Shown here: piece by piece, positions 22,771-52,990 of the stretch
Numbering within the stretch: position 1 is the first letter of the stretch
Layout of the letters: each line of letters starts with the position of its first letter
Assembly: GCA_034401795.1 (NCBI GenBank)
Contig: CM067373.1
Coordinates: 85,414,521 to 85,478,520, forward strand
Length of the DNA stretch: 64,000 nt
Source: Chaetoderma sp. LZ-2023a
Taxonomy: Eukaryota; Mollusca; Caudofoveata; Chaetodermatida; Chaetodermatidae
Reading direction: 5' to 3'
The notes under the pieces: generated by a model
Seen by the model: the letters and a program-made list of their open reading frames with translations, nothing else
Databases searched by the model: none
Told to the model about the DNA's origin: nothing
Program-made: the position numbers and the translations under genes

Positions 22771-22786
22771 GCATTAATTCGTGAGT

Positions 22787-22915: not shown

Positions 22916-22967
<52 letters not shown>

Positions 22968-23530: not shown

Positions 23531-23559
23531 TATGCGTTCATATGTGCGTTTATTCATTC

Positions 23560-24460: not shown

Positions 24461-24479
24461 TTTAATAATCTTTATTCAG

Positions 24480-25573: not shown

Positions 25574-25664
25574 CTAGTGATGAGCAAAATAGAGTGATGT
25601 CAGTACCAACACCGGCGGCCACACCAAGTACAGGTTCAGGTTCACATTCAACAGTGACTAACAA

Positions 25665-26000
25665 ATGACAACGGTCACCAACCACCTTCACACCCTCGCC
25701 TACCACTTCCAAGCGGACGAATCTGTATACAACACCAGCACCTGGAGTGAATTTAAAAACACCTTCCCTAATGCGGAGTTGCACTTTGCTGAGATTAACT
25801 TCTCTGATAGCTTGTCAGACAGGCAAAGGTACTGTCTCAAGCGTATCAACGAATCAGCAAGGTCCAACTGCCACGTTGATAAGGTCATCCCCAAAATTTC
25901 TGATGCGAATTTTCATGTTGAGAAGGATAGAATCCATTGGACGAAAGAAACAGCTAATTGTATTTATAACCATTGGTTGACGGTACTTAGTTTAAACTAA
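25665..26000 (+). pseudogene. PLE N-terminal segment (frame-broken part 2)
   Basis: A second 111-residue piece in another frame, with HFAEINFSDSLSDRQRYCLK and KETANCIYNHWL. It ends just before the RT frame begins at 26,003, which is in a third register. Two frameshifts therefore separate the N-terminus from the RT. Confidence 0.5.
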
Positions 26001-26002
26001 AT

Positions 26003-27988
26003 GTGGGTCAAGGCAATAGCTCCCCTAACATAGGATTAGGAACAAACCTTGTCAATTTAGCAGCTGACTATGATCTCTCACCATCTGAAAAATCAATTCT
26101 CGATCGTGGTCTTACTTTTATACCAACTCCAAAACCAAAAACAGGATTAGATTTGCTTTTAGACACAGGTCTTATTGAAGTAGCTAATTTTGGTCATTCA
26201 GTAAAAATAGCCCATCATTTTCGAAATTTAAATGGAGAGTCAAAACCATTCACTGGAAAATCCGGTTGGGACCCTCCAGATAGGCTAGTTGATGACAATG
26301 TTAAAGCAACCATAAAAACGGTTGCTGGTATAGCCAGATCATTGCCAGTTACAAACAATAAGCACAACCTTTCATTTCTCGAACGACAGGCTATCAACAA
26401 ATTACGTAGAAATCAAAATATTATTATAAAACCAGCCGATAAAGGTTCAGCAACTGTGATTATGTCTAGAGAAAACTACATCCGCGAGGCCGAAAGGCAG
26501 TTAACTAACACCAGGCATTACAGAAAACTTGATAATTTAATTTGGCCTCAAAACCGACAAAATTTCATTGAAATACTTAATTCATTGCATACAAATAAGT
26601 ACATCGATAAGAAACAGCTAAAGTATCTGCTAGGTGAGAATAATCCACAAAATCGGACATTTTATATCTTGCCTAAAATCCATAAACCTATCAGCACCTG
26701 GTTAGATCCATTGACACCTCCTGGACGACCCATCATTTCAGACTGTGGCAGTGAGTCTTATGGCATTTCAGAATATATTGATTACTATTTAAAGCCCATT
26801 GCTAATAGACACAAGAGCTTTCTCAAGAACACAGAACACTTTCTTTCAAAATTATCCAAATTGTCAGTTCCGAAAGATGCATATTTAGTCACATTAGACA
26901 TAGATGCTATGTATACCAATATAGATATTGATGCTGGAGTCAATGCTATTAAGAATTCTTTTGTCAAATTTCCTGATCCAGATCGACCAGACACGGAAAT
27001 TCTAAAATTATTAGAGCTAAGTCTTAAAGGAAACGATTTCCAATTTAATGGTGAAAATTACCTTCAAATCTGTGGATGCGCAATGGGTAAACGATTCAGC
27101 CCAAATTTTGCCACGATTTATGTTGCGGAGTGGGAAGAGGAGGCACTGAACAAATCAACCAAAAAGCCTCTTCTTTACCTCAGATATCTAGATGACATCT
27201 TCATAGTTTGGCAACATTCAGAAGAAGACTTTTGGGAATTTTTTCGCATTTTAAATAACCAAGATTCAAACATCAAGCTAAAAGCTACTATTAGTGGAAC
27301 ATCGGTTGACTTTTTAGATGTCACGATCTATAAGGGTCCTCAATTTGATTCCTCTGGAAAATTAGAATATAAAGTATTCTTTAAGCCAACAGACTCACAT
27401 CAGCTGCTTCACAAAAAATCATTTCATCCTCCACACACATTTAAAGGTTTGATCAAATCGCAAATCATAAGATTTTTTCGAAACTCTAGCAACAGGCAAA
27501 ATCTGAATAGTGCATGCTCTACTCTGTTTGATGCTTTGAAAGCACGAGGCTATTCAGCCCGTTTTCTTCGAAAAATTAAAGCAGACACCATCAATGAGCT
27601 TGAAAATCTAAAACCTCATAGCGGACCCGAGTTTGAACCTGTCCAAATTAAACACAATAAACCAATCATGTGCGATGGATCAGTTTCTAAATGCGACAAA
27701 AATAGATGCAAAGTAAACAACTATATTGTAAACCAACAAACATTCCTGAGCTTTCAACCTAAAAATGAATATCATATCCGAACTAATATGCATTGTGATT
27801 CTGAGAATGTAGTCTATTTGATCAATTGTGCCCTTTGCCAGAAACAGTATGTTGGTGAAACATTAGTGCCTGGGTGTGTGCGTGCATGCATTCGTGCATG
27901 CGTTCATGCATGCATTATTGCGTGCATTCGTGCATGTATTACTGTGTGCATGTATTATTGCATGCATTCGTGCATTCGTTCAGATGTG

Positions 27989-28020
<32 letters not shown>

Positions 28021-28063
28021 TATGTACGTGCGTATGTGTATGTGTGTGCATTCGTGTGTATGA
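26003..28063 (+). CDS. Penelope-like element reverse transcriptase with truncated GIY-YIG nuclease, fused to a microsatellite frame
   Basis: PLE RTs copy RNA onto target ends and are related to telomerase RT; most carry a C-terminal GIY-YIG nuclease. RT motifs are visible in order: KPADKGSATVIM (about residues 142-153), YILPKIHK and GRPIIS, TLDIDAMYTNI (motif A), GCAMGKRFSPNFATIYVAEW (B), LRYLDDIFIVW (C, YLDD intact) and VDFLDVTIY (E). A CDGSVSKCDKNRC cysteine cluster then precedes VVYLINCALCQKQYVGET, the start of GIY-YIG. At 27,860 the element stops and the frame runs on through a GTGC array as Val-Arg-Ala-Cys repeats, so the nuclease catalytic residues are lost. The first codon used here is a GTG; the true protein began upstream, before two frameshifts. 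A Neptune-like affiliation is suggested by the linker cysteines but not proven. Confidence 0.85.
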
Positions 28064-28251
28064 TTTCTCTATAATGTAGGATCAATCCCAGCCTTTACCT
28101 GTTAAAGCGACCTACTGATTAATTCACTTTACCCCAACTAATCTCAAGGGGGGACCACTCTAAGTAAATCTAAACTTGGTCTCGATAGGACAAATTTAGG
28201 CAAAGAAATTTTTAATTAAATTCCTGTGCCAATGCGGTTTTTTTCAATGTA
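27860..28251 (+). repeat. Copy of the 22,787-23,197 segment joined to the truncated PLE
   Basis: Begins with the same ACATTAGTGCCTGGG text as 22,787 and ends at the same CAATGTA. The junction with the PLE shares the two bases AC with both parents. The GTGC run is shorter than in the upstream copy. Equivalent copies follow each PLE fragment at 36,218-36,609 and 44,608-45,015. Confidence 0.9.
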
Positions 28252-28301
28252 CGGACGGACGGACGGGCGGACGGACGGACGGACGGACGGACGGACGGAC
28301 G

Positions 28302-28348
<47 letters not shown>

Positions 28349-28620
28349 TTCCATCAGACAGACTGACAGACTTCCATCAGACAGACTGACAGACTTCCAT
28401 CAGACAGACTGACAGACTTCCATCAGACAGACTGACAGACTTCCATCAGACAGACTGACAGACTTCCATCAGACAGACTGACAGACTTCCATCAGACAGA
28501 CTGACAGACTTCCATCAGACAGACTGACAGACTTCCATCAGACAGACTGACAGACAGACAGACAGACTTACCATCAGACGGACTGACAGACTTACCATCA
28601 GACGGACTGACAGACAGACA
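28251..28620. repeat. (ACGG)n, (CAGA)n and a 23-bp minisatellite
   Basis: (ACGG)n at about 28,251-28,307, (CAGA)n to about 28,345, then about nine copies of a 23-bp unit (CCATCAGACAGACTGACAGA plus CTT) from 28,351, ending in TTACCATCAGACGGACTGAC variants. Counterparts are at about 36,610-37,010 and 45,016-45,410 with different repeat numbers. Confidence 0.9.
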
Positions 28621-28722
28621 TATACTAGTTGTGAGTCGAAACTAAAAAAAGGAAGTGACAATAATCCATCCCGAATGTTTCTAAATTACATACCGTGATT
28701 AATTTACAATTTAAAACATTTC

Positions 28723-28837
28723 TGCTAAATATTTTGAAACTATTTTGACTGAGAGTTGCCGCTATCATCAGTTAATATAACCATGCTATCAGCAACAACA
28801 GCCGTGAGCCAAGTTAGTTTCACAATATTCAATAACT
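28723..28837. mobile_element. Foldback MITE core (unit copy 1)
   Basis: Only the inverted arms remain: AATATTTTGAAACTATTTTG and CAAGTTAGTTTCACAATATT. Equivalent positions are +8390 (unit 2) and +16,787 (unit 3). Confidence 0.5.
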
Positions 28838-29739
28838 TACTCGAGGGACGCATAACATGGGTTTTGTTGTCATACGTTCAAACTTCAAATTCCTTTAGAT
28901 TTCATGTCTCGATGTGCTTGTGCACAACACTGAGAGACATCGAAATCACCTGGTGTTTGGCAAATATATGTTCCTTGCAAATGTCGGTGTACAATGTTAA
29001 TGGTCAAAGGCAACATGACGTGTGTTCCGTATAGTTTTAGTTTGTTTTGTAAAACAATATAGATCTGTGTAGACGTAATGGATTGCTATGCATGTTATTG
29101 TTTAGTCAGGAACTCGCATTTAAGAGTGGTATTTGAAGTTAAAATTTGCCAATGTAATGACAGTCGTAACCGTGCTAAATGTAAGCTTCGCTCACTATCA
29201 GTTTTTTATGCGACATCTTTTGAAAGCATCGTACACACTAAGCATATTGCTGTTGTCCAAAGGCGATGCGAGATATGACACACGGGTATATGGTGCATTC
29301 ACTTTATGCTACAATCAATATAATTCAAGCAACGTTTGTCAAATCTGGTCATGAGGTCAAATGTTATGTCACTAGTCGTGTTCTGATCAGAGTTCCAGAG
29401 ACTATGGTGAGCATCGCATACTGGATACATATTTCTTAAATTGTAAGCAGATTTAGCAATGTCTGTGCACAAACTTACCCTCTGCTTCGGCCTTTATCGA
29501 TAAGGATTCAGGAGACCATGCGAAATTTATTTCAATGCAATCTTAATCATTTCATTCGTCATATTGCTTTGATATAAATAACTGATCTGAATATAAGGGT
29601 CTTTGGTTTTCTATAGCTGAAATGTAATTATTGCAAATGTATAAAATTGTGTAATATGGTGAGAATATATGTTATTATATTTCCTAATTGTTATTCATTA
29701 AATACATCTTTACATTATTTTGGATCGTACTCGATGTAT

Positions 29740-30850
29740 GTAAGCTGTGATTGATGTACACACATCGACCATTGTCCTTGTACTTTAGAATCTATGCTGA
29801 CCATGGCTGAGAGAAAAGCAATGATAAATGCATATTATCAATCTCTGTCACTGACTACATCCTGAGACTATTCATTATCGGGACATCACCATGTATCATT
29901 AGGCTTGTCCATGACCTATTCATTATCCGTGCTAGGATGGAATATGTACTGCTCGAGGACAATAAACGTAAGGTTAACCACAGCTAACATGTGACGTCTA
30001 GGTATAAATACAAGGCCCGAGTTCCAATCAGTACAGACAGGATTAATGTATTATATATGCATGAGTGGATGACGACAATTATTAGACAATGGCCAGCGGT
30101 TATGCTCAGATGTTTCTCCAGAATCACTGATGAACAAATTTTCTACTGCCACTGTTAAACATTTACCATTACGGCGATATTGGAACTCTGCTTACTCATT
30201 AATCCATCAAAGACATAACGCTCGTACACGTGACGTACTTTTCAATGTTCATACCCGAGGTAGATCTGTCATTCATTATGCATTTTGATTGTGACGTAGG
30301 CCTACATGTGACGTCATTGAGAACAGAATGGATGCTTACATTAGATATGTGCCTGTAATGATAGGCGTCCATTTTTCACATGTTCCCTGAAAGCGATTGT
30401 AGACACAGATATAACGTGTTACAGTAACACGGTTACAAAAATACAATACACAGCGCATCAGTTAAATGGCATGAATACATCAATATGGTGATTTATCAGT
30501 GAAATACTGATTAGGCAGTTTCTGTTGCCATCCGCACGTGCTCACTAAGCTTATGAAATCTTTTATTTCAATTGAGGTTCCCAAGTAATCATTAGACACA
30601 CAGCAGAATCTGTAGTTTTGTTACGCAAGAATCCCAAAGGACAAGATCAGTAATTTCTTTAGGGAGATCGCATATCTACGTTACATTGATAATGACACAA
30701 AACGCTTCTGCCATTCAGACCTAAGGGTTACTGTCCTCGTCTTTGAGAACGCGCTCCATTGAACAGAAAATGCATTTAACTTGCAATTGCTATGCCAATG
30801 CATGCACCAAGTGAAATTTACCACATACAGACCCATCATTAACCTAGCAT
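29740..30850 (+). repeat. Dispersed repeat family blocks in unit copy 1
   Basis: Two blocks: 29,790-30,150 (GATAAATGCATATTATCAATCTCTG, a relative of the 10,800 block) and 30,460-30,850 (TTACATTGATAATGACAC, CTCACTAAGCTTATG; relatives of 8160-8500). Their order is the reverse of that in copies A and B, so this region holds parts of two neighbouring repeat copies. Equivalent positions are +8390 and about +16,788. Confidence 0.45.
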
Positions 30851-31277
30851 AACAAATATTCTTCTTAAGATGACGACAACGTCGATCTTTCTTACGTCCA
30901 ACATTACATTTTGAAATTGCTAATAGCTAACGCAACTGGAATGAAACGTGAATACCCGACCAACGTATCGAGTGGAAGTTCTATCTTTTGGTTGACGTCA
31001 TTCGCTCCAAATTCATGGCATGGGGAGTTATTTGGCAAGTATACAATTCCATGATTAGCTTTGATTCTTGGCCTGTGTTTCACAATAGACGTATCCTTGC
31101 AATGACACATTGCTAACAAAGTAAGAGGCAGGCATACAGTTGACATTGATGTGGATAGTTCAAATCCTATTTCCTTGTCGCGAGAAATGCACTTTGGGCT
31201 TCGGGTCACGAAGTAAAATGTTAGCACTTTGAAACGAAATACCTGCTTCGAAACATCATTTACAAGTTAATTAGTAT

Positions 31278-31600
31278 TATGCTTAATATTTGGAAACAAA
31301 TTTTTCTTGGAACTGCTGTCGCACATGGAGCTAACAGATTCCTGTCAAATTAGTTTCGAATTATTCAATAGCTTACCTGTACAGTTTACTTTCTTTGACG
31401 CTCTCTAGTTTAACCACCAATCATATGACGTCATAATCAACTGCGCGATGCGTAGGATAACATCGTAATCAATGACGTCATGGACTACGTAATTAAGTTA
31501 GGCAGCAACAGCACCAAATTAGTCAAATTAGTTTCAAGATATTCAAAAGCTTACTTGTATAGTTTTCCGAAAATCGATAGTCAGAGAGCTCAAGAATCGA
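31278..31600 (-). mobile_element. Foldback MITE fragments, reverse orientation (unit copy 1)
   Basis: Arms TAATATTTGGAAACAAATTT and CAAATTAGTTTCGAATTATTC are followed by CTTACCTGTACAG, a TGACGTCA pair (about 31,427 and 31,463), then a second arm CAAATTAGTTTCAAGATATT. Two nested or overlapping copies. Equivalents at +8390 and +16,788. Confidence 0.5.
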
Positions 31601-31750
31601 TAGATTAAGCATGTCATGACCTTGGTACAACGGCCAGTTTGTGATCCATGACTTCCGAAGCATACATGCGATGTGGTGTTTCTTAGACGCAGTACCATGC
31701 CAGACATAAGGTTTGAATGTTTACTTATTAATTCAGCATCTAGTGACATT

Positions 31751-32130
31751 AGGAAATAGTTTTAGCTATGCCCCGCCCATCTCTAACTAAGCTCCACCCA
31801 CGCTTTGTCCGTCTTGCAATCAATCGATCACTGCACTCACTGGATCTCAATTTCTAGAAGCTTATACAGGTTAGCTGGTGAATATTTTGAAATTAATTTG
31901 ACTGGCAGCAACAGCGCCCAGTCAAATTAGTTTCAAGATATTCGACATAATGTTTATTAAATAGTAAAGACAGACAATTGGTACAACGCGTCGGCTTATT
32001 CAGCGTTTAAGACGGACTAAATCGAGTCAGTCATGCTGGAATTCATCATGATGTCGTCCTACATACCACGCAGTAGATTTTGACGGCATATGACATCATA
32101 TGATGGATGGATAAACTGGAAATGCCAATT
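31751..32130 (+). mobile_element. Foldback MITE, near full length (unit copy 1)
   Basis: TTTTAGCTATGCCCCGCCCA, ATCAATCGATCAC, left arm GAATATTTTGAAATTAATTT, right arm AAATTAGTTTCAAGATATTC, TGTTTATTAAATAGTAAAGA and ATGATGGATGGATAAACTGG are all present in family order, ending GGAAATGCCAATT. The palindrome loop is very short (TGACTGGCAGCAACAGCGCC). Equivalents lie at 40,141-40,520 and 48,539-48,918. Confidence 0.7.
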
Positions 32131-32271
32131 GCCATCTTGTGTATCAAAATGTGAGTTTATTGCGGCTATGCTCATCTTAAAAGAAATGTTGCGCGTGGCG
32201 GTTGGAATATGACATTCTTCAGTTAAAAGGCAATGTTGATTGTAGCTTTCGGAAGTGTCCTCAACTCCCTG

Positions 32272-32455
32272 CTAAAATTTATTAGGTGGTAAAGACATAG
32301 AATTCGGTCAACGTGTCAAACTATTATGAGCTAAAGACGGATTATGTCGGGTCATTTATGACGTCATGATTGTGACGTAATTCTTCAAGTCATGTAGTTG
32401 CTTATGACGTCATATGACGTCATATGATAGATGGATAAACTTGGAAATGTCCATT
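32272..32455 (+). mobile_element. Foldback MITE, right half (unit copy 1)
   Basis: From ATTAGGTGGTAAAGACATAG to ATAAACTTGGAAATGTCCAT. It contains TATGACGTCATATGACGTCA at about 32,405, two CRE octamers in a palindrome. Left half missing. Equivalents at +8390 and +16,788. Confidence 0.6.
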
Positions 32456-32499
32456 TTGTTATTAAGAGATGTTTTCCTCTTGACATTCATTAAATATTT

Positions 32500-33620
32500 T
32501 AGGAGGTTACTGTAACAATAGAGCATGGATTGGCCTCTGCTAGCAAACAGTGTTGTTGCATACATATAACATTGTCTGATCTGTCTCTGTACTTTAGAAT
32601 CTGTGATGACATCGACTGAGTGAGAACCAATGATGCGTGATTATCATCAATCTCCGCCACAACTACATCATTCCATTATTCATTATTTGTCCATCAAGAT
32701 CTCTTTCTACATCTGTCTCCCGACATTTCATCATCCGCACATAATCGTCTTTGTCACTCGTGTGCTTAGATGAAATATCCCGCTCGATGATAAATATAAG
32801 ATTTAGCTCCAGCCACCTGGTGGCCGATGCGTGTATATGACATGAATTCAAATTCTTACAAGGGATATTCTTGCATTATCTATGTATGTGGGGGTTTATT
32901 ATAATTAATCGGCAATGGTCAAAGGCTAGTCACTGGTGGTTCTTTTCACTGACTGGTGATAAAATATTCTAGATCTGGATATATCTATTTCACATTTTCT
33001 TTTTAATTTGCAGAGAGTCTAATATTGGAAATATCTATGTATTTTCTTGCTTTCTCTTTCTATCCATCCTACGGTTCCGTTCAAGTTGTTTCTCTCCCAT
33101 ATCGGTATTTATGTTACGAGCTAGCTGGCTGTACATTCCCCTCATCAACAACCAATCAACAGGCCTTTCTTTTACAGTATTCACATGTCGCTAGGCGTAA
33201 CAGATTTTTTGTTTCTCTCTCATCCCCTCACGCATCTACCCTCCCACACCATACCTCGTATACACCCACTGGACACACTATGGTAAAGTTGAACACCATT
33301 AAATTGTCTTTAGTGACAGTACAGCTCCTCATTCTCAAAAAAGGTGTTGCTCATTTTATCAACATAGCTTTCTAAATGAAGTTTTATGAACATAATACTT
33401 TGCGTCCATAAACTGTTGTCACACTTATGGTGGTAGCCGTACTAACGCGTGCCATAATCTGCTGCTGGATCTATGAAGTTCTTTTTTTAAGTCTGCAGAT
33501 CAGAATTTACTAGGGATACTTGCGACCCCGGGCATGATGAATGCGTTTCCGTAAATTGCCACTGAATCGATTAAGTAGGACTTAGCGGAGCATTTATCTG
33601 TGATTGGGTGTCTGTATGTA
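32500..33620 (+). repeat. Dispersed repeat family, copy C (unit copy 1)
   Basis: GTTACTGTAACAATAGAGCA, ATGCGTGATTATCATCAATC, GATGATAAATATAAGATTTA, ATTGGAAATATCTATGTATT, ATCAGAATTTACTAGGG and GAATCGATTAAG..GCATTTATCTG run parallel to 10,800-11,400 and 21,150-22,200. Small open frames here (for example 33,025-33,375) are not conserved in the other copies. Equivalents at 40,890-42,010 and 49,288-50,408. Confidence 0.5.
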
Positions 33621-33879
33621 TGCTTAGTGTATTCCGCGGCTGTAGTAGTAGAAACATCCTACATCTGCGATCAGTCCTTATTCGCTTTTGCCCACTGTGT
33701 CTTGTCTCCGCCGAAATCCTTAGCTTTCTCACGTCCATTCGTGACTTGAGTGTACCGAGTCCTCGTTTCTTGCGATCACTTCGTAGCACGCTTAGCATAT
33801 TTATGCAATGACACGCAATGTGTCGATTCTTAGATGGTTTGAATGTTTACTCATTAATTAAGCATCTAGTGGCAATAGG

Positions 33880-34425
33880 AAATGGGCCTTTTCAGATTTA
33901 GCTATGTCCCGCCCATCTCTAGCTAAGCTCCACCAACACTTTGCCCGTGTGGGAATCAATAGATCCCTGAAGACTCTGAATCTCAATTTCGAGAACACTA
34001 TATTGAGCTTATTGCCAGAAACATTAAGCACAAGATCGTGCATAGAGATCAAGAACATTAAAAGGAAAATATTGTCTAAAACAAGCTCAAATGTCATATT
34101 GTACTGAACAGACATATTTTTCACTTGCAAACGTGGTCATTTTTCACGTCACAAATAATTTGCAAAAGTTGGCTTATAATAATTTTGGTGCTGTAAGATC
34201 TGATAAATTGTCTGCTGACTATTAGGCAGGACTGCAACAGCGCCCAGTCAAAATTAGTTTCAAAATATTCAACATTATGTTTATTAAATAGTAAAGACAT
34301 AAAATTCGTACAATAACGCTTAGTCCGTCATCAATTAAGCGTTCGTGACGAATTTATCTACGTCATTCATGTTGCCATTGATTATGATTGACGTCATTCA
34401 TGACATCATTTATTATGCGTAGGTG
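33880..34425 (+). mobile_element. Foldback MITE with internal insertion (unit copy 1)
   Basis: Left end AATGGGCCTTTTCAGATTTA and GCTATGTCCCGCCCATCTCT at 33,880. About 190 bp of unrelated AT-rich sequence interrupts it. It resumes at about 34,210 with CAACAGCGCCCAGTC, AAATTAGTTTCAAAATATTC and TGTTTATTAAATAGTAAAGA and runs to about 34,425. Equivalents at +8390 and +16,788. Confidence 0.55.
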
Positions 34426-34439
34426 TTTATGGTAGCAGG

Positions 34440-35014
34440 CATCAATTTTGTCTAGAGCTGATTTGGAGCTTCCCGGCATCTACAGATATGCGGCTTGAAG
34501 GATACGCAGGTTGCCTTGTATAAACGTAGTCTTTGTGTCAATGCCACCTTTGATTTACAAATCCCGAGCTTCTTGAAGTACTGGAAAGCTATGTTCCCTA
34601 TGATGCAGCGGGCAGCAATATCAGCAATGAGCACAGGATCGTACCTTTCCTCCATGGTTCGCCGCCACGAAGCGGATCATCATTTTCTTCAGTTTCATGA
34701 TTAGTAGATATGTAGCTGAACTCTGTTTTGGATTCATTAATAAAGAGATTCTTAATTTTTAGCTTGCTTGCAGCTATGGGAGAAATTTTTCAAGAGGTTT
34801 CTTTTCCTCGTCTATGAAGTCCGCGTCGTCGGCATATTCCATCTCTATCGAAATACCCAGTATGGACACTGGGGGTTTGGTATTGTGGAATTTTCTAGCA
34901 CGGATTTCAATGCAGTGGCAGCGTAACAGGTAATGGGCAACTGCGTCGAAAGCGTGTGACATGTCAGTGCCCGTTTTGTTGAATTCCCGGTGCTTGGACA
35001 TGACTACTGACACT
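34440..35014 (-). pseudogene. YADD LINE fragment cut at the unit boundary (copy 1)
   Basis: Minus strand: FDAVAHYLLRCHCIEIRARK, ISIEMEYADDADFIDEEKKP (catalytic YADD intact) and, in a second frame, ALTQRLRLYKATCVSFKPH (thumb-type block). The sequence stops at 35,014 where unit 2 starts in the PLE. The uncut version is at 51,235-52,990. Confidence 0.7.
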
Positions 35015-35027
35015 GACATTTTATATC

Positions 35028-36347
35028 TTGCCTAAAATCCATAAACCTATCAGCACCTGGTTAGATCCATTGACACCTCCTGGACGACCCATCATTTCAG
35101 ACTGTGGCAGTGAGTCTTATGGCATTTCAGAATATATTGATTACTATTTAAAGCCCATTGCTAATAGACACAAGAGCTTTCTCAAGAACACAGAACACTT
35201 TCTTTCAAAATTATCCAAATTGTCAGTTCTGAAAGATGCATATTTAGTCACATTAGACATAGATGCTATGTATACCAATATAGATATTGATGCTGGAGTC
35301 AATGCTATTAAGAATTCTTTTGTCAAATTTCCTGATCCAGATCGACCAGACACGGAAATTCTAAAATTATTAGAGCTAAGTCTTAAAGGAAACGATTTCC
35401 AATTTAATGGTGAAAATTACCTTCAAATCTGTGGATGCGCAATGGGTAAACGATTCAGCCCAAATTTTGCCACGATTTATGTTGCGGAGTGGGAAGAGGA
35501 GGCACTGAACAAATCAACCAAAAAGCCTCTTCTTTACCTCAGATATCTAGATGACATCTTCATAGTTTGGCAACATTCAGAAGAAGACTTTTGGGAATTT
35601 TTTCGCATTTTAAATAACCAAGATTCAAACATCAAGCTAAAAGCTACTATTAGTGGAACATCGGTTGACTTTTTAGATGTCACGATCTATAAGGGTCCTC
35701 AATTTGATTCCTCTGGAAAATTAGAATATAAAGTATTCTTTAAGCCAACAGACTCACATCAGCTGCTTCACAAAAAATCATTTCATCCTCCACACACATT
35801 TAAAGGTTTGATCAAATCGCAAATCATAAGATTTTTTCGAAACTCTAGCAACAGGCAAAATCTGAATAGTGCATGCTCTACTCTGTTTGATGCTTTGAAA
35901 GCACGAGGCTATTCAGCCCGTTTTCTTCGAAAAATTAAAGCAGACACCATCAATGAGCTTGAAAATCTAAAACCTCATAGCGGACCCGAGTTTGAACCTG
36001 TCCAAATTAAACACAATAAACCAATCATGTGCGATGGATCAGTTTCTAAATGCGACAAAAATAGATGCAAAGTAAACAACTATATTGTAAACCAACAAAC
36101 ATTCCTGAGCTTTCAACCTAAAAATGAATATCATATCCGAACTAATATGCATTGTGATTCTGAGAATGTAGTCTATTTGATCAATTGTGCCCTTTGCCAG
36201 AAACAGTATGTTGGTGAAACATTAGTGCCTGGGTGTGTGCGTGCATGCATTCGTGCATGCGTTCATGCATGCATTATTGCGTGCATTCGTGCATGTATTA
36301 CTGTGTGCATGTATTATTGCATGCATTCGTGCATTCGTTCAGATGTG

Positions 36348-36379
<32 letters not shown>

Positions 36380-36422
36380 TATGTACGTGCGTATGTGTAT
36401 GTGTGTGCATTCGTGTGTATGA
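35028..36422 (+). pseudogene. PLE RT fragment, N-terminally cut by duplication (copy 2)
   Basis: Begins at MPKIHKPISTW, an internal Leu-to-Met position of the parental RT created by reading from within, and keeps motifs A to E (TLDIDAMYTNI, GCAMGKRFSPN, YLDD), the linker cysteines and the first GIY-YIG motif, then the Val-Arg-Ala-Cys tail. It lacks about 218 residues of the parent, including the KPADKG finger motif, so it cannot be an active RT. It starts only 13 bp from the unit junction. Confidence 0.85.
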
Positions 36423-36609
36423 TTTCTCTATAATGTAGGATCAATCCCAGCCTTTACCTGTTAAAGCGACCTACTGATTAATTCACTTTACCCCAACTAA
36501 TCTCAAGGGGGGACCACTCTAAGTAAATCTAAACTTGGTCTCGATAGGACAAATTTAGGCAAAGAAATTTTTAATTAAATTCCTGTGCCAATGCGGTTTT
36601 TTTCAATGT

Positions 36610-36664
36610 ACGGACGGGCGGACGGACGGACGGACGGACGGACGGACGGACGGACGGACGGACG

Positions 36665-36723
<59 letters not shown>

Positions 36724-37010
36724 TTCCATCAGACAGACTGACAGACTTCCATCAGACAGACTGACAGACTTCCATCAGACAGACTGACAGACTTCCATCA
36801 GACAGACTGACAGACTTCCATCAGACAGACTGACAGACTTCCATCAGACAGACTGACAGACTTCCATCAGACAGACTGACAGACTTCCATCAGACAGACT
36901 GACAGACTTCCATCAGACAGACTTCCATCAGACAGACTGACAGACAGACAGACAGACTTACCATCAGACGGACTGACAGACTTACCATCAGACGGACTGA
37001 CAGACAGACA
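36610..37010. repeat. Tetranucleotide and 23-bp minisatellite, unit copy 2
   Basis: Longer (ACGG)n and (CAGA)n runs than copy 1. One minisatellite unit is internally shortened (CAGACAGACTTCCATCAGAC near 36,915); the same shortening is seen in copy 3 but not copy 1. Confidence 0.9.
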
Positions 37011-40000: not shown

Positions 40001-40140
40001 ATGTCATGACCTTGGTACAACGGCCAGTTTGTGATCCATGACTTCCGAAGCATACATGCGATGTGGTGTTTCTTAGACGCAGTACCATGCCAGACATAAG
40101 GTTTGAATGTTTACTTATTAATTCAGCATCTAGTGACATT

Positions 40141-40520
40141 AGGAAATAGTTTTAGCTATGCCCCGCCCATCTCTAACTAAGCTCCACCCACGCTTTGTCC
40201 GTCTTGCAATCAATCGATCACTGCACTCACTGGATCTCAATTTCTAGAAGCTTATACAGGTTAGCTGGTGAATATTTTGAAATTAATTTGACTGGCAGCA
40301 ACAGCGCCCAGTCAAATTAGTTTCAAGATATTCGACATAATGTTTATTAAATAGTAAAGACAGACAATTGGTACAACGCGTCGGCTTATTCAGCGTTTAA
40401 GACGGACTAAATCGAGTCAGTCATGCTGGAATTCATCATGATGTCGTCCTACATACCACGCAGTAGATTTTGACGGCATATGACATCATATGATGGATGG
40501 ATAAACTGGAAATGCCAATT
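40141..40520 (+). mobile_element. Foldback MITE (unit copy 2)
   Basis: Duplicate of 31,751-32,130, essentially identical. Other MITE pieces of this unit are at about 37,113-37,227, 39,668-39,990, 40,662-40,845 and 42,270-42,815. Confidence 0.65.
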
Positions 40521-42829
40521 GCCATCTTGTGTATCAAAATGTGAGTTTATTGCGGCTATGCTCATCTTAAAAGAAATGTTGCGCGTGGCGGTTGGAATAT
40601 GACATTCTTCAGTTAAAAGGCAATGTTGATTGTAGCTTTCGGAAGTGTCCTCAACTCCCTGCTAAAATTTATTAGGTGGTAAAGACATAGAATTCGGTCA
40701 ACGTGTCAAACTATTATGAGCTAAAGACGGATTATGTCGGGTCATTTATGACGTCATGATTGTGACGTAATTCTTCAAGTCATGTAGTTGCTTATGACGT
40801 CATATGACGTCATATGATAGATGGATAAACTTGGAAATGTCCATTTTGTTATTAAGAGATGTTTTCCTCTTGACATTCATTAAATATTTTAGGAGGTTAC
40901 TGTAACAATAGAGCATGGATTGGCCTCTGCTAGCAAACAGTGTTGTTGCATACATATAACATTGTCTGATCTGTCTCTGTACTTTAGAATCTGTGATGAC
41001 AACGACTGAGTGAGAACCAATGATGCGTGATTATCATCAATCTCCGCCACAACTACATCATTCCATTATTCATTATTTGTCCATCAAGATCTCTTTCTAC
41101 ATCTGTCTCCCGACATTTCATCATCCGCACATAATCGTCTTTGTCACTCGTGTGCTTAGATGAAATATCCCGCTCGATGATAAATATAAGATTTAGCTCC
41201 AGCCACCTGGTGGCCGATGCGTGTATATGACATGAATTCAAATTCTTACAAGGGATATTCTTGCATTATCTATGTATGTGGGGGTTTATTATAATTAATC
41301 GGCAATGGTCAAAGGCTAGTCACTGGTGGTTCTTTTCACTGACTGGTGATAAAATATTCTAGATCTGGATATATCTATTTCACATTTTCTTTTTAATTTG
41401 CAGAGAGTCTAATATTGGAAATATCTATGTATTTTCTTGCTTTCTCTTTCTATCCATCCTACGGTTCCGTTCAAGTTGTTTCTCTCCCATATCGGTATTT
41501 ATGTTACGAGCTAGCTGGCTGTACATTCCCCTCATCAACAACCAATCAACAGGCCTTTCTTTTACAGTATTCACATGTCGCTAGGCGTAACAGATTTTTT
41601 GTTTCTCTCTCATCCCCTCACGCATCTACCCTCCCACACCATACCTCGTATACACCCACTGGACACACTATGGTAAAGTTGAACACCATTAAATTGTCTT
41701 TAGTGACAGTACAGCTCCTCATTCTCAAAAAAGGTGTTGCTCATTTTATCAACATAGCTTTCTAAATGAAGTTTTATGAACATAATACTTTGCGTCCATA
41801 AACTGTTGTCACACTTATGGTGGTAGCCGTACTAACGCGTGCCATAATCTGCTGCTGGATCTATGAAGTTCTTTTTTTAAGTCTGCAGATCAGAATTTAC
41901 TAGGGATACTTGCGACCCCGGGCATGATGAATGCGTTTCCGTAAATTGCCACTGAATCGATTAAGTAGGACTTAGCGGAGCATTTATCTGTGATTGGGTG
42001 TCTGTATGTATGCTTAGTGTATTCCGCGGCTGTAGTAGTAGAAACATCCTACATCTGCGATCAGTCCTTATTCGCTTTTGCCCACTGTGTCTTGTCTCCG
42101 CCGAAATCCTTAGCTTTCTCACGTCCATTCGTGACTTGAGTGTACCGAGTCCTCGTTTCTTGCGATCACTTCGTAGCACGCTTAGCATATTTATGCAATG
42201 ACACGCAATGTGTCGATTCTTAGATGGTTTGAATGTTTACTCATTAATTAAGCATCTAGTGGCAATAGGAAATGGGCCTTTTCAGATTTAGCTATGTCCC
42301 GCCCATCTCTAGCTAAGCTCCACCAACACTTTGCCCGTGTGGGAATCAATAGATCCCTGAAGACTCTGAATCTCAATTTCGAGAACACTATATTGAGCTT
42401 ATTGCCAGAAACATTAAGCACAAGATCGTGCATAGAGATCAAGAACATTAAAAGGAAAATATTGTCTAAAACAAGCTCAAATGTCATATTGTACTGAACA
42501 GACATATTTTTCACTTGCAAACGTGGTCATTTTTCACGTCACAAATAATTTGCAAAAGTTGGCTTATAATAATTTTGGTGCTGTAAGATCTGATAAATTG
42601 TCTGCTGACTATTAGGCAGGACTGCAACAGCGCCCAGTCAAAATTAGTTTCAAAATATTCAACATTATGTTTATTAAATAGTAAAGACATAAAATTCGTA
42701 CAATAACGCTTAGTCCGTCATCAATTAAGCGTTCGTGACGAATTTATCTACGTCATTCATGTTGCCATTGATTATGATTGACGTCATTCATGACATCATT
42801 TATTATGCGTAGGTGTTTATGGTAGCAGG

Positions 42830-43404
42830 CATCAATTTTGTCTAGAGCTGATTTGGAGCTTCCCGGCATCTACAGATATGCGGCTTGAAGGATACGCAGG
42901 TTGCCTTGTATAAACGTAGTCTTTGTGTCAATGCCACCTTTGATTTACAAATCCCGAGCTTCTTGAAGTACTGGAAAGCTATGTTCCCTATGATGCAGCG
43001 GGCAGCAATATCAGCAATGAGCACAGGATCGTACCTTTCCTCCATGGTTCGCCGCCACGAAGCGGATCATCATTTTCTTCAGTTTCATGATTAGTAGATA
43101 TGTAGCTGAACTCTGTTTTGGATTCATTAATAAAGAGATTCTTAATTTTTAGCTTGCTTGCAGCTATGGGAGAAATTTTTCAAGAGGTTTCTTTTCCTCG
43201 TCTATGAAGTCCGCGTCGTCGGCATATTCCATCTCTATCGAAATACCCAGTATGGACACTGGGGGTTTGGTATTGTGGAATTTTCTAGCACGGATTTCAA
43301 TGCAGTGGCAGCGTAACAGGTAATGGGCAACTGCGTCGAAAGCGTGTGACATGTCAGTGCCCGTTTTGTTGAATTCCCGGTGCTTGGACATGACTACTGA
43401 CACT
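42830..43404 (-). pseudogene. YADD LINE fragment cut at the unit boundary (copy 2)
   Basis: Duplicate of 34,440-35,014, with intact YADD box and the same endpoint ACTACTGACACT at the junction with unit 3. Confidence 0.7.
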
Positions 43405-43417
43405 GACATTTTATATC

Positions 43418-44737
43418 TTGCCTAAAATCCATAAACCTATCAGCACCTGGTTAGATCCATTGACACCTCCTGGACGACCCATCATTTCAGACTGTGGCAG
43501 TGAGTCTTATGGCATTTCAGAATATATTGATTACTATTTAAAGCCCATTGCTAATAGACACAAGAGCTTTCTCAAGAACACAGAACACTTTCTTTCAAAA
43601 TTATCCAAATTGTCAGTTCTGAAAGATGCATATTTAGTCACATTAGACATAGATGCTATGTATACCAATATAGATATTGATGCTGGAGTCAATGCTATTA
43701 AGAATTCTTTTGTCAAATTTCCTGATCCAGATCGACCAGACACGGAAATTCTAAAATTATTAGAGCTAAGTCTTAAAGGAAACGATTTCCAATTTAATGG
43801 TGAAAATTACCTTCAAATCTGTGGATGCGCAATGGGTAAACGATTCAGCCCAAATTTTGCCACGATTTATGTTGCGGAGTGGGAAGAGGAGGCACTGAAC
43901 AAATCAACCAAAAAGCCTCTTCTTTACCTCAGATATCTAGATGACATCTTCATAGTTTGGCAACATTCAGAAGAAGACTTTTGGGAATTTTTTCGCATTT
44001 TAAATAACCAAGATTCAAACATCAAGCTAAAAGCTACTATTAGTGGAACATCGGTTGACTTTTTAGATGTCACGATCTATAAGGGTCCTCAATTTGATTC
44101 CTCTGGAAAATTAGAATATAAAGTATTCTTTAAGCCAACAGACTCACATCAGCTGCTTCACAAAAAATCATTTCATCCTCCACACACATTTAAAGGTTTG
44201 ATCAAATCGCAAATCATAAGATTTTTTCGAAACTCTAGCAACAGGCAAAATCTGAATAGTGCATGCTCTACTCTGTTTGATGCTTTGAAAGCACGAGGCT
44301 ATTCAGCCCGTTTTCTTCGAAAAATTAAAGCAGACACCATCAATGAGCTTGAAAATCTAAAACCTCATAGCGGACCCGAGTTTGAACCTGTCCAAATTAA
44401 ACACAATAAACCAATCATGTGCGATGGATCAGTTTCTAAATGCGACAAAAATAGATGCAAAGTAAACAACTATATTGTAAACCAACAAACATTCCTGAGC
44501 TTTCAACCTAAAAATGAATATCATATCCGAACTAATATGCATTGTGATTCTGAGAATGTAGTCTATTTGATCAATTGTGCCCTTTGCCAGAAACAGTATG
44601 TTGGTGAAACATTAGTGCCTGGGTGTGTGCGTGCATGCATTCGTGCATGCGTTCATGCATGCATTATTGCGTGCATTCGTGCATGTATTACTGTGTGCAT
44701 GTATTATTGCATGCATTCGTGCATTCGTTCAGATGTG

Positions 44738-44785
<48 letters not shown>

Positions 44786-44839
44786 TATGTACGTGCGTAT
44801 GTGTATGTGTGTGCATTCGTGTGTATGATTTCTCTATAA
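43418..44839 (+). pseudogene. PLE RT fragment, N-terminally cut (copy 3)
   Basis: As in copy 2, including the shared Pro-to-Leu change. The GTGC array is 12 bp or more longer than in copies 1 and 2, extending the artefactual Val-Arg-Ala-Cys tail and changing its end frame. Confidence 0.85.
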
Positions 44840-45015
44840 TGTAGGATCAATCCCAGCCTTTACCTGTTAAAGCGACCTACTGATTAATTCACTTTACCCC
44901 AACTAATCTCAAGGGGGGACCACTCTAAGTAAATCTAAACTTGGTCTCGATAGGACAAATTTAGGCAAAGAAATTTTTAATTAAATTCCTGTGCCAATGC
45001 GGTTTTTTTCAATGT

Positions 45016-45062
45016 ACGGACGGACGGGCGGACGGACGGACGGACGGACAGACAGACAGACG

Positions 45063-45097
<35 letters not shown>

Positions 45098-45410
45098 TTC
45101 CATCAGACAGACTGACAGACTTCCATCAGACAGACTGACAGACTTCCATCAGACAGACTGACAGACTTCCATCAGACAGACTGACAGACTTCCATCAGAC
45201 AGACTGACAGACTTCCATCAGACAGACTGACAGACTTCCATCAGACAGACTGACAGACTTCCATCAGACAGACTGACAGACTTCCATCAGACAGACTGAC
45301 AGACTTCCATCAGACAGACTTCCATCAGACAGACTGACAGACAGACAGACAGACTTACCATCAGACGGACTGACAGACTTACCATCAGACGGACTGACAG
45401 ACAGACATAT
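45016..45410. repeat. Tetranucleotide and 23-bp minisatellite, unit copy 3
   Basis: Short (ACGG)n with a CAGACGGACAGAC interruption, about ten 23-bp units, with the shortened unit shared with copy 2. Confidence 0.9.
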
Positions 45411-48400
45411 ACTAGTTGTGAGTCGAAACTAAAAAAAGGAAGTGACAATAATCCATCCCGAATGTTTCTAAATTACATACCGTGATTAATTTACAATTTA
45501 AAACATTTCTGCTAAATATTTTGAAACTATTTTGACTGAGAGTTGCCGCTATCATCAGTTAATATAACCATGCTATCAGCAACAACAGTCGTGAGCCAAG
45601 TTAGTTTCACAATATTCAATAACTTACTCGAGGGACGCATAACATGGGTTTTGTTGTCATACGTTCAAACTTCAAATTCCTTTAGATTTCATGTCTCGAT
45701 GTGCTTGTGCACAACACTGAGAGACATCGAAATCACCTGGTGTTTGGCAAATATATGTTCCTTGCAAATGTCGGTGTACAATGTTAATGGTCAAAGGCAA
45801 CATGACGTGTGTTCCGTATAGTTTTAGTTTGTTTTGTAAAACAATATAGATCTGTGTAGACGTAATGGATTGCTATGCATGTTATTGTTTAGTCAGGAAC
45901 TCGCATTTAAGAGTGGTATTTGAAGTTAAAATTTGCCAATGTAATGACAGTCGTAACCGTGCTAAATGTAAGCTTCGCTCACTATCAGTTTTTTATGCGA
46001 CATCTTTTGAAAGCATCGTACACACTAAGCATATTGCTGTTGTCCAAAGGCGATGCGAGATATGACACACGGGTATATGGTGCATTCACTTTATGCTACA
46101 ATCAATATAATTCAAGCAACGTTTGTCAAATCTGGTCATGAGGTCAAATGTTATGTCACTAGTCGTGTTCTGATCAGAGTTCCAGAGACTATGGTGAGCA
46201 TCGCATACTGGATACATATTTCTTAAATTGTAAGCAGATTTAGCAATGTCTGTGCACAAACTTACCCTCTGCTTCGGCCTTTATCGATAAGGATTCAGGA
46301 GACCATGCGAAATTTATTTCAATGCAATCTTAATCATTTCATTCCGTCATATTGCTTTGATATAAATAACTGATCTGAATATAAGGGTCTTTGGTTTTCT
46401 ATAGCTGAAATGTAATTATTGCAAATGTATAAAATTGTGTAATATGGTGAGAATATATGTTATTATATTTCCTAATTGTTATTCATTAAATACATCTTTA
46501 CATTATTTTGGATCGTACTCGATGTATGTAAGCTGTGATTGATGTACACACATCGACCATTGTCCTTGTACTTTAGAATCTATGCTGACCATGGCTGAGA
46601 GAAAAGCAATGATAAATGCATATTATCAATCTCTGTCACTGACTACATCCTGAGACTATTCATTATCGGGACATCACCATGTATCATTAGGCTTGTCCAT
46701 GACCTATTCATTATCCGTGCTAGGATGGAATATGTACTGCTCGAGGACAATAAACGTAAGGTTAACCACAGCTAACATGTGACGTCTAGGTATAAATACA
46801 AGGCCCGAGTTCCAATCAGTACAGACAGGATTAATGTATTATATATGCATGAGTGGATGACGACAATTATTAGACAATGGCCAGCGGTTATGCTCAGATG
46901 TTTCTCCAGAATCACTGATGAACAAATTTTCTACTGCCACTGTTAAACATTTACCATTACGGCGATATTGGAACTCTGCTTACTCATTAATCCATCAAAG
47001 ACATAACGCTCGTACACGTGACGTACTTTTCAATGTTCATACCCGAGGTAGATCTGTCATTCATTATGCATTTTGATTGTGACGTAGGCCTACATGTGAC
47101 GTCATTGAGAACAGAATGGATGCTTACATTAGATATGTGCCTGTAATGATAGGCGTCCATTTTTCACATGTTCCCTGAAAGCGATTGTAGACACAGATAT
47201 AACGTGTTACAGTAACACGGTTACAAAAATACAATACACAGCGCATCAGTTAAATGGCATGAATACATCAATATGGTGATTTATCAGTGAAATACTGATT
47301 AGGCAGTTTCTGTTGCCATCCGCACGTGCTCACTAAGCTTATGAAATCTTTTATTTCAATTGAGGTTCCCAAGTAATCATTAGACACACAGCAGAATCTG
47401 TAGTTTTGTTACGCAAGAATCCCAAAGGACAAGATCAGTAATTTCTTTAGGGAGATCGCATATCTACGTTACATTGATAATGACACAAAACGCTTCTGCC
47501 ATTCAGACCTAAGGGTTACTGTCCTCGTCTTTGAGAACGCGCTCCATTGAACAGAAAATGCATTTAACTTGCAATTGCTATGCCAATGCATGCACCAAGT
47601 GAAATTTACCACATACAGACCCATCATTAACCTAGCATAACAAATATTCTTCTTAAGATGACGACAACGTCGATCTTTCTTACGTCCAACATTACATTTT
47701 GAAATTGCTAATAGCTAACGCAACTGGAATGAAACGTGAATACCCGACCAACGTATCGAGTGGAAGTTCTATCTTTTGGTTGACGTCATTCGCTCCAAAT
47801 TCATGGCATGGGGAGTTATTTGGCAAGTATACAATTCCATGATTAGCTTTGATTCTTGGCCTGTGTTTCACAATAGACGTATCCTTGCAATGACACATTG
47901 CTAACAAAGTAAGAGGCAGGCATACAGTTGACATTGATGTGGATAGTTCAAATCCTATTTCCTTGTCGCGAGAAATGCACTTTGGGCTTCGGGTCACGAA
48001 GTAAAATGTTAGCACTTTGAAACGAAATACCTGCTTCGAAACATCATTTACAAGTTAATTAGTATTATGCTTAATATTTGGAAACAAATTTTTCTTGGAA
48101 CTGCTGTCGCACATGGAGCTAACAGATTCCTGTCAAATTAGTTTCGAATTATTCAATAGCTTACCTGTACAGTTTACTTGCTTTGACGCTCTCTAGTTTA
48201 ACCACCAATCATATGACGTCATAATCAACTGCGCGATGCGTAGGATAACATCGTAATCAATGACGTCATGGACTACGTAATTAAGTTAGGCAGCAACAGC
48301 ACCAAATTAGTCAAATTAGTTTCAAGATATTCAAAAGCTTACTTGTATAGTTTTCCGAAAATCGATAGTCAGAGAGCTCAAGAATCGATAGATTAAGCAT

Positions 48401-48538
48401 GTCATGACCTTGGTACAACGGCCAGTTTGTGATCCATGACTTCCGAAGCATACATGCGATGTGGTGTTTCTTAGACGCAGTACCATGCCAGACATAAGGT
48501 TTGAATGTTTACTTATTAATTCAGCATCTAGTGACATT

Positions 48539-48918
48539 AGGAAATAGTTTTAGCTATGCCCCGCCCATCTCTAACTAAGCTCCACCCACGCTTTGTCCGT
48601 CTTGCAATCAATCGATCACTGCACTCACTGGATCTCAATTTCTAGAAGCTTATACAGGTTAGCTGGTGAATATTTTGAAATTAATTTGACTGGCAGCAAC
48701 AGCGCCCAGTCAAATTAGTTTCAAGATATTCGACATAATGTTTATTAAATAGTAAAGACAGACAATTGGTACAACGCGTCGGCTTATTCAGCGTTTAAGA
48801 CGGACTAAATCGAGTCAGTCATGCTGGAATTCATCATGATGTCGTCCTACATACCACGCAGTAGATTTTGACGGCATATGACATCATATGATGGATGGAT
48901 AAACTGGAAATGCCAATT
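48539..48918 (+). mobile_element. Foldback MITE (unit copy 3)
   Basis: Duplicate of 31,751-32,130. Other MITE pieces of this unit are at about 45,510-45,624, 48,066-48,388, 49,060-49,243 and 50,668-51,213. Confidence 0.65.
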
Positions 48919-51234
48919 GCCATCTTGTGTATCAAAATGTGAGTTTATTGCGGCTATGCTCATCTTAAAAGAAATGTTGCGCGTGGCGGTTGGAATATGA
49001 CATTCTTCAGTTAAAAGGCAATGTTGATTGTAGCTTTCGGAAGTGTCCTCAACTCCCTGCTAAAATTTATTAGGTGGTAAAGACATAGAATTCGGTCAAC
49101 GTGTCAAACTATTATGAGCTAAAGACGGATTATGTCGGGTCATTTATGACGTCATGATTGTGACGTAATTCTTCAAGTCATGTAGTTGCTTATGACGTCA
49201 TATGACGTCATATGATAGATGGATAAACTTGGAAATGTCCATTTTGTTATTAAGAGATGTTTTCCTCTTGACATTCATTAAATATTTTAGGAGGTTACTG
49301 TAACAATAGAGCATGGATTGGCCTCTGCTAGCAAACAGTGTTGTTGCATACATATAACATTGTCTGATCTGTCTCTGTACTTTAGAATCTGTGATGACAA
49401 CGACTGAGTGAGAACCAATGATGCGTGATTATCATCAATCTCCGCCACAACTACATCATTCCATTATTCATTATTTGTCCATCAAGATCTCTTTCTACAT
49501 CTGTCTCCCGACATTTCATCATCCGCACATAATCGTCTTTGTCACTCGTGTGCTTAGATGAAATATCCCGCTCGATGATAAATATAAGATTTAGCTCCAG
49601 CCACCTGGTGGCCGATGCGTGTATATGACATGAATTCAAATTCTTACAAGGGATATTCTTGCATTATCTATGTATGTGGGGGTTTATTATAATTAATCGG
49701 CAATGGTCAAAGGCTAGTCACTGGTGGTTCTTTTCACTGACTGGTGATACAATATTCTAGATCTGGATATATCTATTTCACATTTTCTTTTTAATTTGCA
49801 GAGAGTCTAATATTGGAAATATCTATGTATTTTCTTGCTTTCTCTTTCTATCCATCCTACGGTTCCGTTCAAGTTGTTTCTCTCCCATATCGGTATTTAT
49901 GTTACGAGCTAGCTTGCTGTACATTCCCCTCATCAACAACCAATCAACAGGCCTTTCTTTTACAGTATTCACATGTCGCTAGGCGTAACAGATTTTTTGT
50001 TTCTCTCTCATCCCCTCACGCATCTACCCTCCCACACCATACCTCGTATACACCCACTGGACACACTATGGTAAAGTTGAACACCATTAAATTGTCTTTA
50101 GTGACAGTACAGCTCCTCATTCTCAAAAAAGGTGTTGCTCATTTTATCAACATAGCTTTCTAAATGAAGTTTTATGAACATAATACTTTGCGTCCATAAA
50201 CTGTTGTCACACTTATGGTGGTAGCCGTACTAACGCGTGCCATAATCTGCTGCTGGATCTATGAAGTTCTTTTTTTAAGTCTGCAGATCAGAATTTACTA
50301 GGGATACTTGCGACCCCGGGCATGATGAATGCGTTTCCGTAAATTGCCACTGAATCGATTAAGTAGGACTTAGCGGAGCATTTATCTGTGATTGGGTGTC
50401 TGTATGTATGCTTAGTGTATTCCGCGGCTGTAGTAGTAGAAACATCCTACATCTGCGATCAGTCCTTATTCGCTTTTGCCCACTGTGTCTTGTCTCCGCC
50501 GAAATCCTTAGCTTTCTCACGTCCATTCGTGACTTGAGTGTACCGAGTCCTCGTTTCTTGCGATCACTTCGTAGCACGCTTAGCATATTTATGCAATGAC
50601 ACGCAATGTGTCGATTCTTAGATGGTTTGAATGTTTACTCATTAATTAAGCATCTAGTGGCAATAGGAAATGGGCCTTTTCAGATTTAGCTATGTCCCGC
50701 CCATCTCTAGCTAAGCACCACCAACACTTTGCCCGTGTGGGAATCAATAGATCCCTGAAGACTCTGAATCTCAATTTCGAGAACACTATATTGAGCTTAT
50801 TGCCAGAAACATTAAGCACAAGATCGTGCATAGAGATCAAGAACATTAAAAGGAAAATATTGTCTAAAACAAGCTCAAATGTCATATTGTACTGAACAGA
50901 CATATTTTTCACTTGCAAACGTGGTCATTTTTCACGTCACAAATAATTTGCAAAAGTTGGCTTATAATAATTTTGGTGCTGTAAGATCTGATAAATTGTC
51001 TGCTGACTATTAGGCAGGACTGCAACAGCGCCCAGTCAAAATTAGTTTCAAAATATTCAACATTATGTTTATTAAATAGTAAAGACATAAAATTCGTACA
51101 ATAACGCTTAGTCCGTCATCAATTAAGCGTTCGTGACGAATTTATCTACGTCATTCATGTTGCCATTGATTATGATTGACGTCATTCATGACATCATTTA
51201 TTATGCGTAGGTGTTTATGGTAGCAGGCATCAAT

Positions 51235-52990
51235 TTTGTCTAGAGCTGATTTGGAGCTTCCCGGCATCTACAGATATGCGGCTTGAAGGATACGCAGGTT
51301 GCCTTGTATAAACGTAGTCTTTGTGTCAATGCCACCTTTGATTTACAAATCCCGAGCTTCTTGAAGTACTGGAAAGCTATGTTCCCTATGATGCAGCGGG
51401 CAGCAATATCAGCAATGAGCACAGGATCGTACCTTTCCTCCATGGTTCGCCGCCACGAAGCGGATCATCATTTTCTTCAGTTTCATGATTAGTAGATATG
51501 TAGCTGAACTCTGTTTTGGATTCATTAATAAAGAGATTCTTAATTTTTAGCTTGCTTGCAGCTATGGGAGAAATTTTTCAAGAGGTTTCTTTTCCTCGTC
51601 TATGAAGTCCGCGTCGTCGGCATATTCCATCTCTATCGAAATACCCAGTATGGACACTGGGGGTTTGGTATTGTGGAATTTTCTAGCACGGATTTCAATG
51701 CAGTGGCAGCGTAACAGGTAATGGGCAACTGCGTCGAAAGCGTGTGACATGTCAGTGCCCGTTTTGTTGAATTCCCGGTGCTTGGACATGACTACTGACA
51801 CTGGCAATGTCTGTGCAGATGCGTCCATGTTTAAAGCCACTTTGGCATGATCCGGTGAAGTCATCGATCTGGTCTTGGATGCAGCATAGAATAACATTGG
51901 ATAGGATTTTTAGTATGCTATTGAGGAGCACAATGGGACGCAGATTGGCTGGGAGCTATGTGGCCTCTTGGGCGTGGGTAGCGCGATATGTGTCACGGTG
52001 TACGTGCTCCTTGACCTACACCGTCGATGGGAAGGTAGTGTAGAAAGGATTAATTGACTAGGTACGTGATCGATTTTGAGCTAATGTCACTTACGTATTT
52101 GATTAGTTACTTGCTCAATGCTATCAGGTCCGGATGCACGCCCTTTTTTCAGGGATTTGAGCGCCTTCTCAAATTCTGCTGTGGTAATTGATGTTAGTAA
52201 TGGCATGGGGTCTCCTGAGAACGGTGTCATGGATCATCATAGTGCTCAGTGAACTGTTCCTTGAACCATTCTAGAATCGCCTTTGCTTTACCTTGGTCAG
52301 TCTCTATAAAGTGTCCATCAGATGTGTGTGCAGTGAGTGGTGGTGTGTAGTCCGTAACTCTCAGGGCTCTGGCTGCCAGAAACATTTTGTAGCAGTCATC
52401 TGTGGCTGTGAATTTATCTGCTAGGGAGTCTCGTTCTTGAATACCAAGATATGTTAAGGAGTCGATGATGTAGCGCGGAATGTTTTTGCCTTCCTTTCAT
52501 AGTTGCTGGTATGGCATTTATACATTAGGTAGAGAGTGTTCCCGTGCAGGCGTGTAACTGGCTTATGGTTAAGCCCTTCTATGCTGTGACGACATGAGTG
52601 TTTAAAGGTGGTGTTTGTAGGAAATAGGCTATTGGATCTCCTTTGCTGTTGTGCGTGCTCTCTCCTTACAATCCCATACATAAACCAAGTCCTGACTTTT
52701 TTCCGCATTGCCAAGTTTACCTATCCTGGAGTTAAAATATCCACACACCAACAGTTGCCATCTGGCTGGTATTGTAATGGCGGAACTCAATTCTGCTTAG
52801 AAGGAATCTAACATTGCTGGATTCTCTTCGGCTCTTTTGGTAGTTGGACCATATGAGTTCACTATGCGACACTTAGTGATGGTGCGTCTTCGCGTTGCCA
52901 GGTCGATGAACGCAACGCGATCACTAACGGATACAGAACTAATGGCAGGGAATCGTAATGTAGGCTAATCGTAATATGTGTGTACATCGG
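51235..52990 (-). pseudogene. YADD-type LINE, most complete copy (endonuclease to thumb)
   Basis: Minus-strand order: endonuclease text at about 52,930-52,700 (SYGPTTKRAEENPAM, then VCGYFNSRIGKLGNA, a GDFN box with Asp replaced by Tyr), linker (52,714-52,330; TSDGHFIETDQGKAK), then LRPIVLLNSILKILSNVIL and CQSGFKHGR (RT fingers, about 51,950-51,800). Then FDAVAHYLL, ISIEMEYADDADFIDEEK (YADD near 51,611-51,626) and the thumb block (51,443-51,240). Many frame breaks. The right boundary of the 8.4-kb unit (51,803) falls inside it, between the RT finger block and the palm. Confidence 0.7.

Follow-up and report, generated by a model that had tools for sequence, protein, structure and literature searches.

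How did an 8.4-kb unit of mostly repeat-derived DNA come to stand three times head to tail in a Chaetoderma genome, and in which order did the copies arise? The stretch of DNA analysed here (C15:85414521-85478520), referred to as the window, is 64,000 nucleotides long and comes from a genome assembly of 2.44 Gb in 2753 contigs. A sequence-only reading had described three near-identical copies with identical junctions and proposed one template-switching or rolling event followed by unequal exchange. Our results point to a real-looking, ordinary young tandem array whose order of events is unusually readable. We consider it likely, from a few polarised changes in one assembly, that a single tandem duplication was followed by one unequal crossover or an equivalent conversion.

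The array and its junctions

Self-BLAST and MAFFT alignments delimited three copies in the same orientation (Table 1). As determined by self-comparison, the stretches 26656-43405 and 35015-51803 are 99.54% identical over 16,798 aligned columns, and the three-way alignment bore out the near-identical 8.4-kb copies of the earlier description; by these alignments chance similarity is excluded as their source.

Table 1. Features of the array and of the elements at its ends (window coordinates).
Feature	Position	Strand	Length	Remarks
Penelope-like element (PLE)	22614..28263, limits approximate	+		RVT_1 5.1e-7; left breakpoint 26656 in RT
Copy 1	26656..35014	+	8359 bp	self-BLAST, MAFFT
Micro/minisatellite block within unit	27978..28620 (copy 1 coordinates)			most length differences here
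Non-PLE body of unit	28934..34275 (copy 1 coordinates)			broken collinear paralog at C15:85580980-85588476
Inner junction 1	35005..35025			LINE RT fused to PLE RT, one G in common
Copy 2	35015..43404	+	8390 bp	read as mosaic: left end copy-3-like, further right copy-1-like
Interval of inferred crossover, in copy 2	35230..36346			right limit 37946 without microsatellite site
Inner junction 2	43395..43415			identical to junction 1
Copy 3	43405..51803	+	8399 bp	final G retained; self-BLAST, MAFFT
Old decayed LINE	51240..53000, limits approximate	-		right breakpoint 51803; RT end repeated at ends of copies 1 and 2

The sequence at both inner junctions is ...TGACACT(G)ACATTTT..., where the single G can be assigned to either side. 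In the left parent the sequence is AAAATCG(G)ACATTTT, in the right parent it is TGACACT(G)GCAATG, and no bases were lost from either at the join. When a 400-bp junction query was run against the genome (40 of 4276 candidates scored), full-length matches were found only at the two inner junctions of the window. Both parent sequences are unbroken elsewhere: a 601-bp query across the left breakpoint matched in full length at at least 39 other places (40 of 1370 candidates scored), and the LINE runs across the right breakpoint in all 37 other scored places, with 78-81% identity. This identical novel junction between unbroken parents with little or no homology fits tandem segmental duplication by non-homologous joining. 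The breakpoints have no long homology, as the earlier reading had it.

The mechanism of this joining is another matter. Random junctions at a base composition of 30/20/20/30 share one base in approximately 45% of cases, and thus the one-base microhomology identifies no mechanism. MMBIR or template switching would be recognised by at least 2 bp of microhomology and, often, complex junctions; we found 1 bp and a simple junction, which does not exclude a replicative origin. Of the history proposed earlier, the single initial event stands; the shared base gives template switching no preference over plain end joining. No long hairpin was found within 100 bp of the breakpoints, and hairpin-driven breakage was disfavoured: the only inverted repeat of at least 7 bp within that distance lies at the right breakpoint, with none at the left.

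The element at the left breakpoint carries direct repeats resembling pseudo-LTRs (22787-23206 vs. 27860-28260) and is shorter than fetched copies of its family at 25742/25747 and at 27862. Compared with a fetched copy on contig C2592, approximately 780 bp are missing at 25742-25747 and approximately 800 bp at 27860-27862, the second gap with a 3-bp ACA shared at the join. Over an RT stretch the family is 97.5-99.8% identical in nine fetched groups, eight of which were picked for having neighbours (on C1 and contig C2592), and it is thus young. On chromosome C1, 21 of the 31 places among the matches listed have another on the same strand no more than 12 kb away, at spacings of 5.3-11.0 kb. For the LINE at the right breakpoint, a related copy gave an RVT_1 match (4.9e-7), and three short LINE ORFs scanned in the window gave no Pfam match.

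The unit and its distant paralog

Approximately 120 kb to the right, on the same strand, we found a broken collinear paralog (C15:85580980-85588476), 74-87% identical by block. A 2-kb query from the body of the unit, for which 40 of 3816 candidates were scored, recovered the three copies (printed as 100%), two pieces of 85-87% identity on C15 about 120 kb to the right and a further 47 matches that were weaker. A 401-bp query from further right in the body had eight candidates, all scored: the three copies, a match of 82% at the distant paralog and four weaker ones. Over the 9501 bases of the paralog region, neither the PLE end nor the LINE end of the unit had a plus-strand match at E 1e-15.

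That no intact gene was amplified, as had been claimed, is consistent with our scan, within its reach: five of the 37 unit ORFs of at least 55 aa in 28600-35014 were scanned as continuous frames, and none gave a Pfam match; the PLE frame itself matches RVT_1. On these five ORFs, amplification of a gene is disfavoured. Compared with the paralog along 261 bases, the longest minus-strand ORF of 28600-35014 had a dN (0.105) close to its dS (0.114), and the 122-aa plus-strand ORF at 33007-33375 had no match in the paralog sequence compared. Rfam at the gathering threshold and ARAGORN returned nothing in the window. We infer that the array is most likely neutral.

Polarised differences and the order of events

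In the three-way alignment, copies 1 and 2 differ by 5 substitutions and 2 gap events, copies 1 and 3 by 17 and 5, and copies 2 and 3 by 16 and 5. The micro/minisatellite block (columns 1261-2100) accounts for 2, 10 and 10 of these substitutions, respectively. Nine events lie outside the block, at columns 216, 2201, 2943, 2956, 4792, 6012, 6362, 6527 and 7329; the final G at column 8415 was left out of this count as the shared junction base.

At unit position 216 (26871, 35230 and 43620 in the three copies) copy 1 has C, whereas copies 2 and 3 have T. Of 35 distinct PLE places read for this column, three are the copies themselves and the other 32 all have C (fetched loci, identity at least 90%). 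By this comparison the T, at a single CpG site, is shared-derived in copies 2 and 3. For six further columns the older state was read from paralog blocks of 83-87% identity (2943 T, 2956 C present, 4792 G, 6012 A, 6362 A and 6527 G). Copy 3 agrees with the paralog in having C at 2956 and G at 4792; judged against it, the 1-bp loss of C at 2956 and the T at 4792 are shared-derived in copies 1 and 2. The changes private to one copy right of the satellite block are 6012 in copy 1, 2943 in copy 2, and 6362 and 6527 in copy 3. Column 7329 is without a collinear counterpart in the paralog. Among 18 places of related repeats, counting the array's own copies, the base is T at 15, C at one and G at one, and by this majority the change is probably also private to copy 3.

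Relative to copy 3, copies 1 and 2 both have 16 bp less of a (GTGC)n microsatellite at column 1333, which in the upstream pseudo-LTR repeat is longer than in copy 3. Its length agrees weakly with the grouping of copies 1 and 2, as it varies widely among other copies of the family. Copy 2 stands alone at columns 1620 and 1667 of the satellite block, copy 1 at columns 1628 and 1910, and copy 3 at the others. The four named differences (two sites and two gaps) go against the grouping of copy 1 with copy 2; they are unpolarised, and the block was given little weight. If derived in copies 2 and 3, the states at 1628 and 1910 would contradict the crossover interval.

The middle copy thus resembles the last copy at its left end (one CpG site) and the first copy further right (two polarised changes and the microsatellite), the mosaic by which a triplication through NAHR is recognised. 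Since one set of derived changes is shared by copies 2 and 3 and another by copies 1 and 2, a three-copy tree free of exchange fails, barring repeated identical changes or an overwriting of copy 1 at column 216. Right of the block, with the unpolarised column 2201 omitted, each lineage has three polarised changes, and in the lineage of copies 1 and 2 two precede the exchange and one follows it in each copy. The exchange would therefore be younger than the duplication.

We propose that a break in the LINE (51803) was joined to a break in the PLE RT (26656) with no meaningful homology, either end joining or a replication template switch being sufficient for this step. The resulting two copies, A on the left and B on the right, would then have accumulated mutations, until B of one chromatid or homolog mispaired with A of its counterpart. 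A crossover somewhere from unit position 216 to approximately 1333 (or 2956, if the microsatellite is ignored) would give an array of A, a copy with B on its left and A on its right, and B. The polarised shared changes, few in number, support this crossover step. The middle copy would look no different after conversion of a second copy, and the pattern at column 216 could also stem from another PLE having converted copy 1. With identical junctions and polarised shared changes, the suggestion of one event followed by unequal exchange is upheld.

This two-step route, a single junction followed by unequal crossover, is described for expansion of the MYH3C array of threespine stickleback in a preprint (PMC12776057). 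The two cases have in common one low-homology shared junction and middle copies that are last-copy-like at the 5′ side and first-copy-like at the 3′ side. In the preprint, the stickleback junction has 4-8 bp of microhomology and the region of approximately 17.6 kb bears genes and was followed in many haplotypes with long reads, whereas here we have 1 bp, no gene found and one assembly. MMBIR followed by NAHR has been put forward as a general route to copy-number change, in which, as in our array, a non-homologous first junction supplies the homology for later exchange; the 2-5 bp of microhomology given there for MMBIR junctions leave the one base found here unable to separate MMBIR from end joining (PMC2621351). 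What is new is that paralog-polarised differences at one compact locus indicate duplication and then unequal crossover, and such a mosaic pattern could serve as a screen for young arrays in assemblies.

Other origins and the neighbourhood

An assembly error on a true two-copy array would yield exactly the same mosaic. The assembly path would have switched from within the second copy of haplotype 1 to the first copy of haplotype 2; the duplication would then be real and the third copy would not. The copies are 8.4 kb long and nearly identical, and the array is known here from the assembly alone. Against this, the differences between copies 1 and 2 (two single-base sites right of the satellite block and two gaps inside it) would have to be allelic, and the window contains no N; neither point is decisive. 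We regard such an error as unlikely, and because an assembler that switches haplotypes produces this mosaic, read support is needed before arrays of this kind are interpreted. For the first duplication an artefact is a poor explanation, given the one-base junction overlap and the different derived changes in each copy.

That a single replication-based or rolling event gave all three copies, the pattern arising through later mutation and gene conversion, appears improbable to us. The identical junctions agree with it, and the private counts of 2, 1 and 6 alone do not reject it (exact multinomial p 0.17). Yet the T in copies 2 and 3 and the two changes in copies 1 and 2 would then call for two or more conversion tracts or for the same changes in parallel, whereas duplication followed by exchange fits the polarised counts. 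The rolling amplification suggested from the sequence alone was dropped: nothing requires it, the copies are unequally related and the middle copy reads as a mosaic.

Penelope-like elements form partial tandems with pseudo-LTRs (PMC11167929, PMC3846280), and the element at the left breakpoint, with its pseudo-LTR-like repeats and often head-to-tail family, resembles them. A Penelope tandem array would have the element itself as its unit, whereas the 8.4-kb unit begins in the RT, ends in the LINE and carries other DNA. It is very doubtful that the young PLE family, through, for instance, breaks or primed synthesis where it has inserted, drives tandem duplication of the host DNA next to it and that this array is a fresh case among many in the genome. 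We give hardly any credence to retrotransposition with 3′ transduction, in which a 5′-truncated PLE insertion took 8.4 kb of flanking DNA into the LINE: the family is young and often tandem, but its tandems repeat PLE sequence whereas the unit is largely non-PLE, and the LINE is continuous at 51803/51804, with no loss, no tail and no target-site duplication beyond the G shared at 35015/43405, so that one base would have to serve as both transduced end and insertion point.

To the right of the array by 2.8 kb lies a galaxin-like repeat ORF (54579-54977, minus strand; PF24748, 7.1e-23), whose family has at least 136 matches in the genome (150 of 819 candidates scored). Six matches at five spots fall within approximately 260 kb (C15:85.21-85.47 Mb), all on the minus strand and one with an inner stop; the other spots are C15:85208738, 85221178, 85277407 and 85321358. 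Two of the five spots lie 12,440 bp from each other and share 99.06% identity along approximately 2 kb. With these duplicates beside the array, the neighbourhood is one of local duplication, both old and young. Further right, at 59983-63645 of the plus strand, a LINE frame stays open for 1220 codons and gives endonuclease, RT and RNase H matches.
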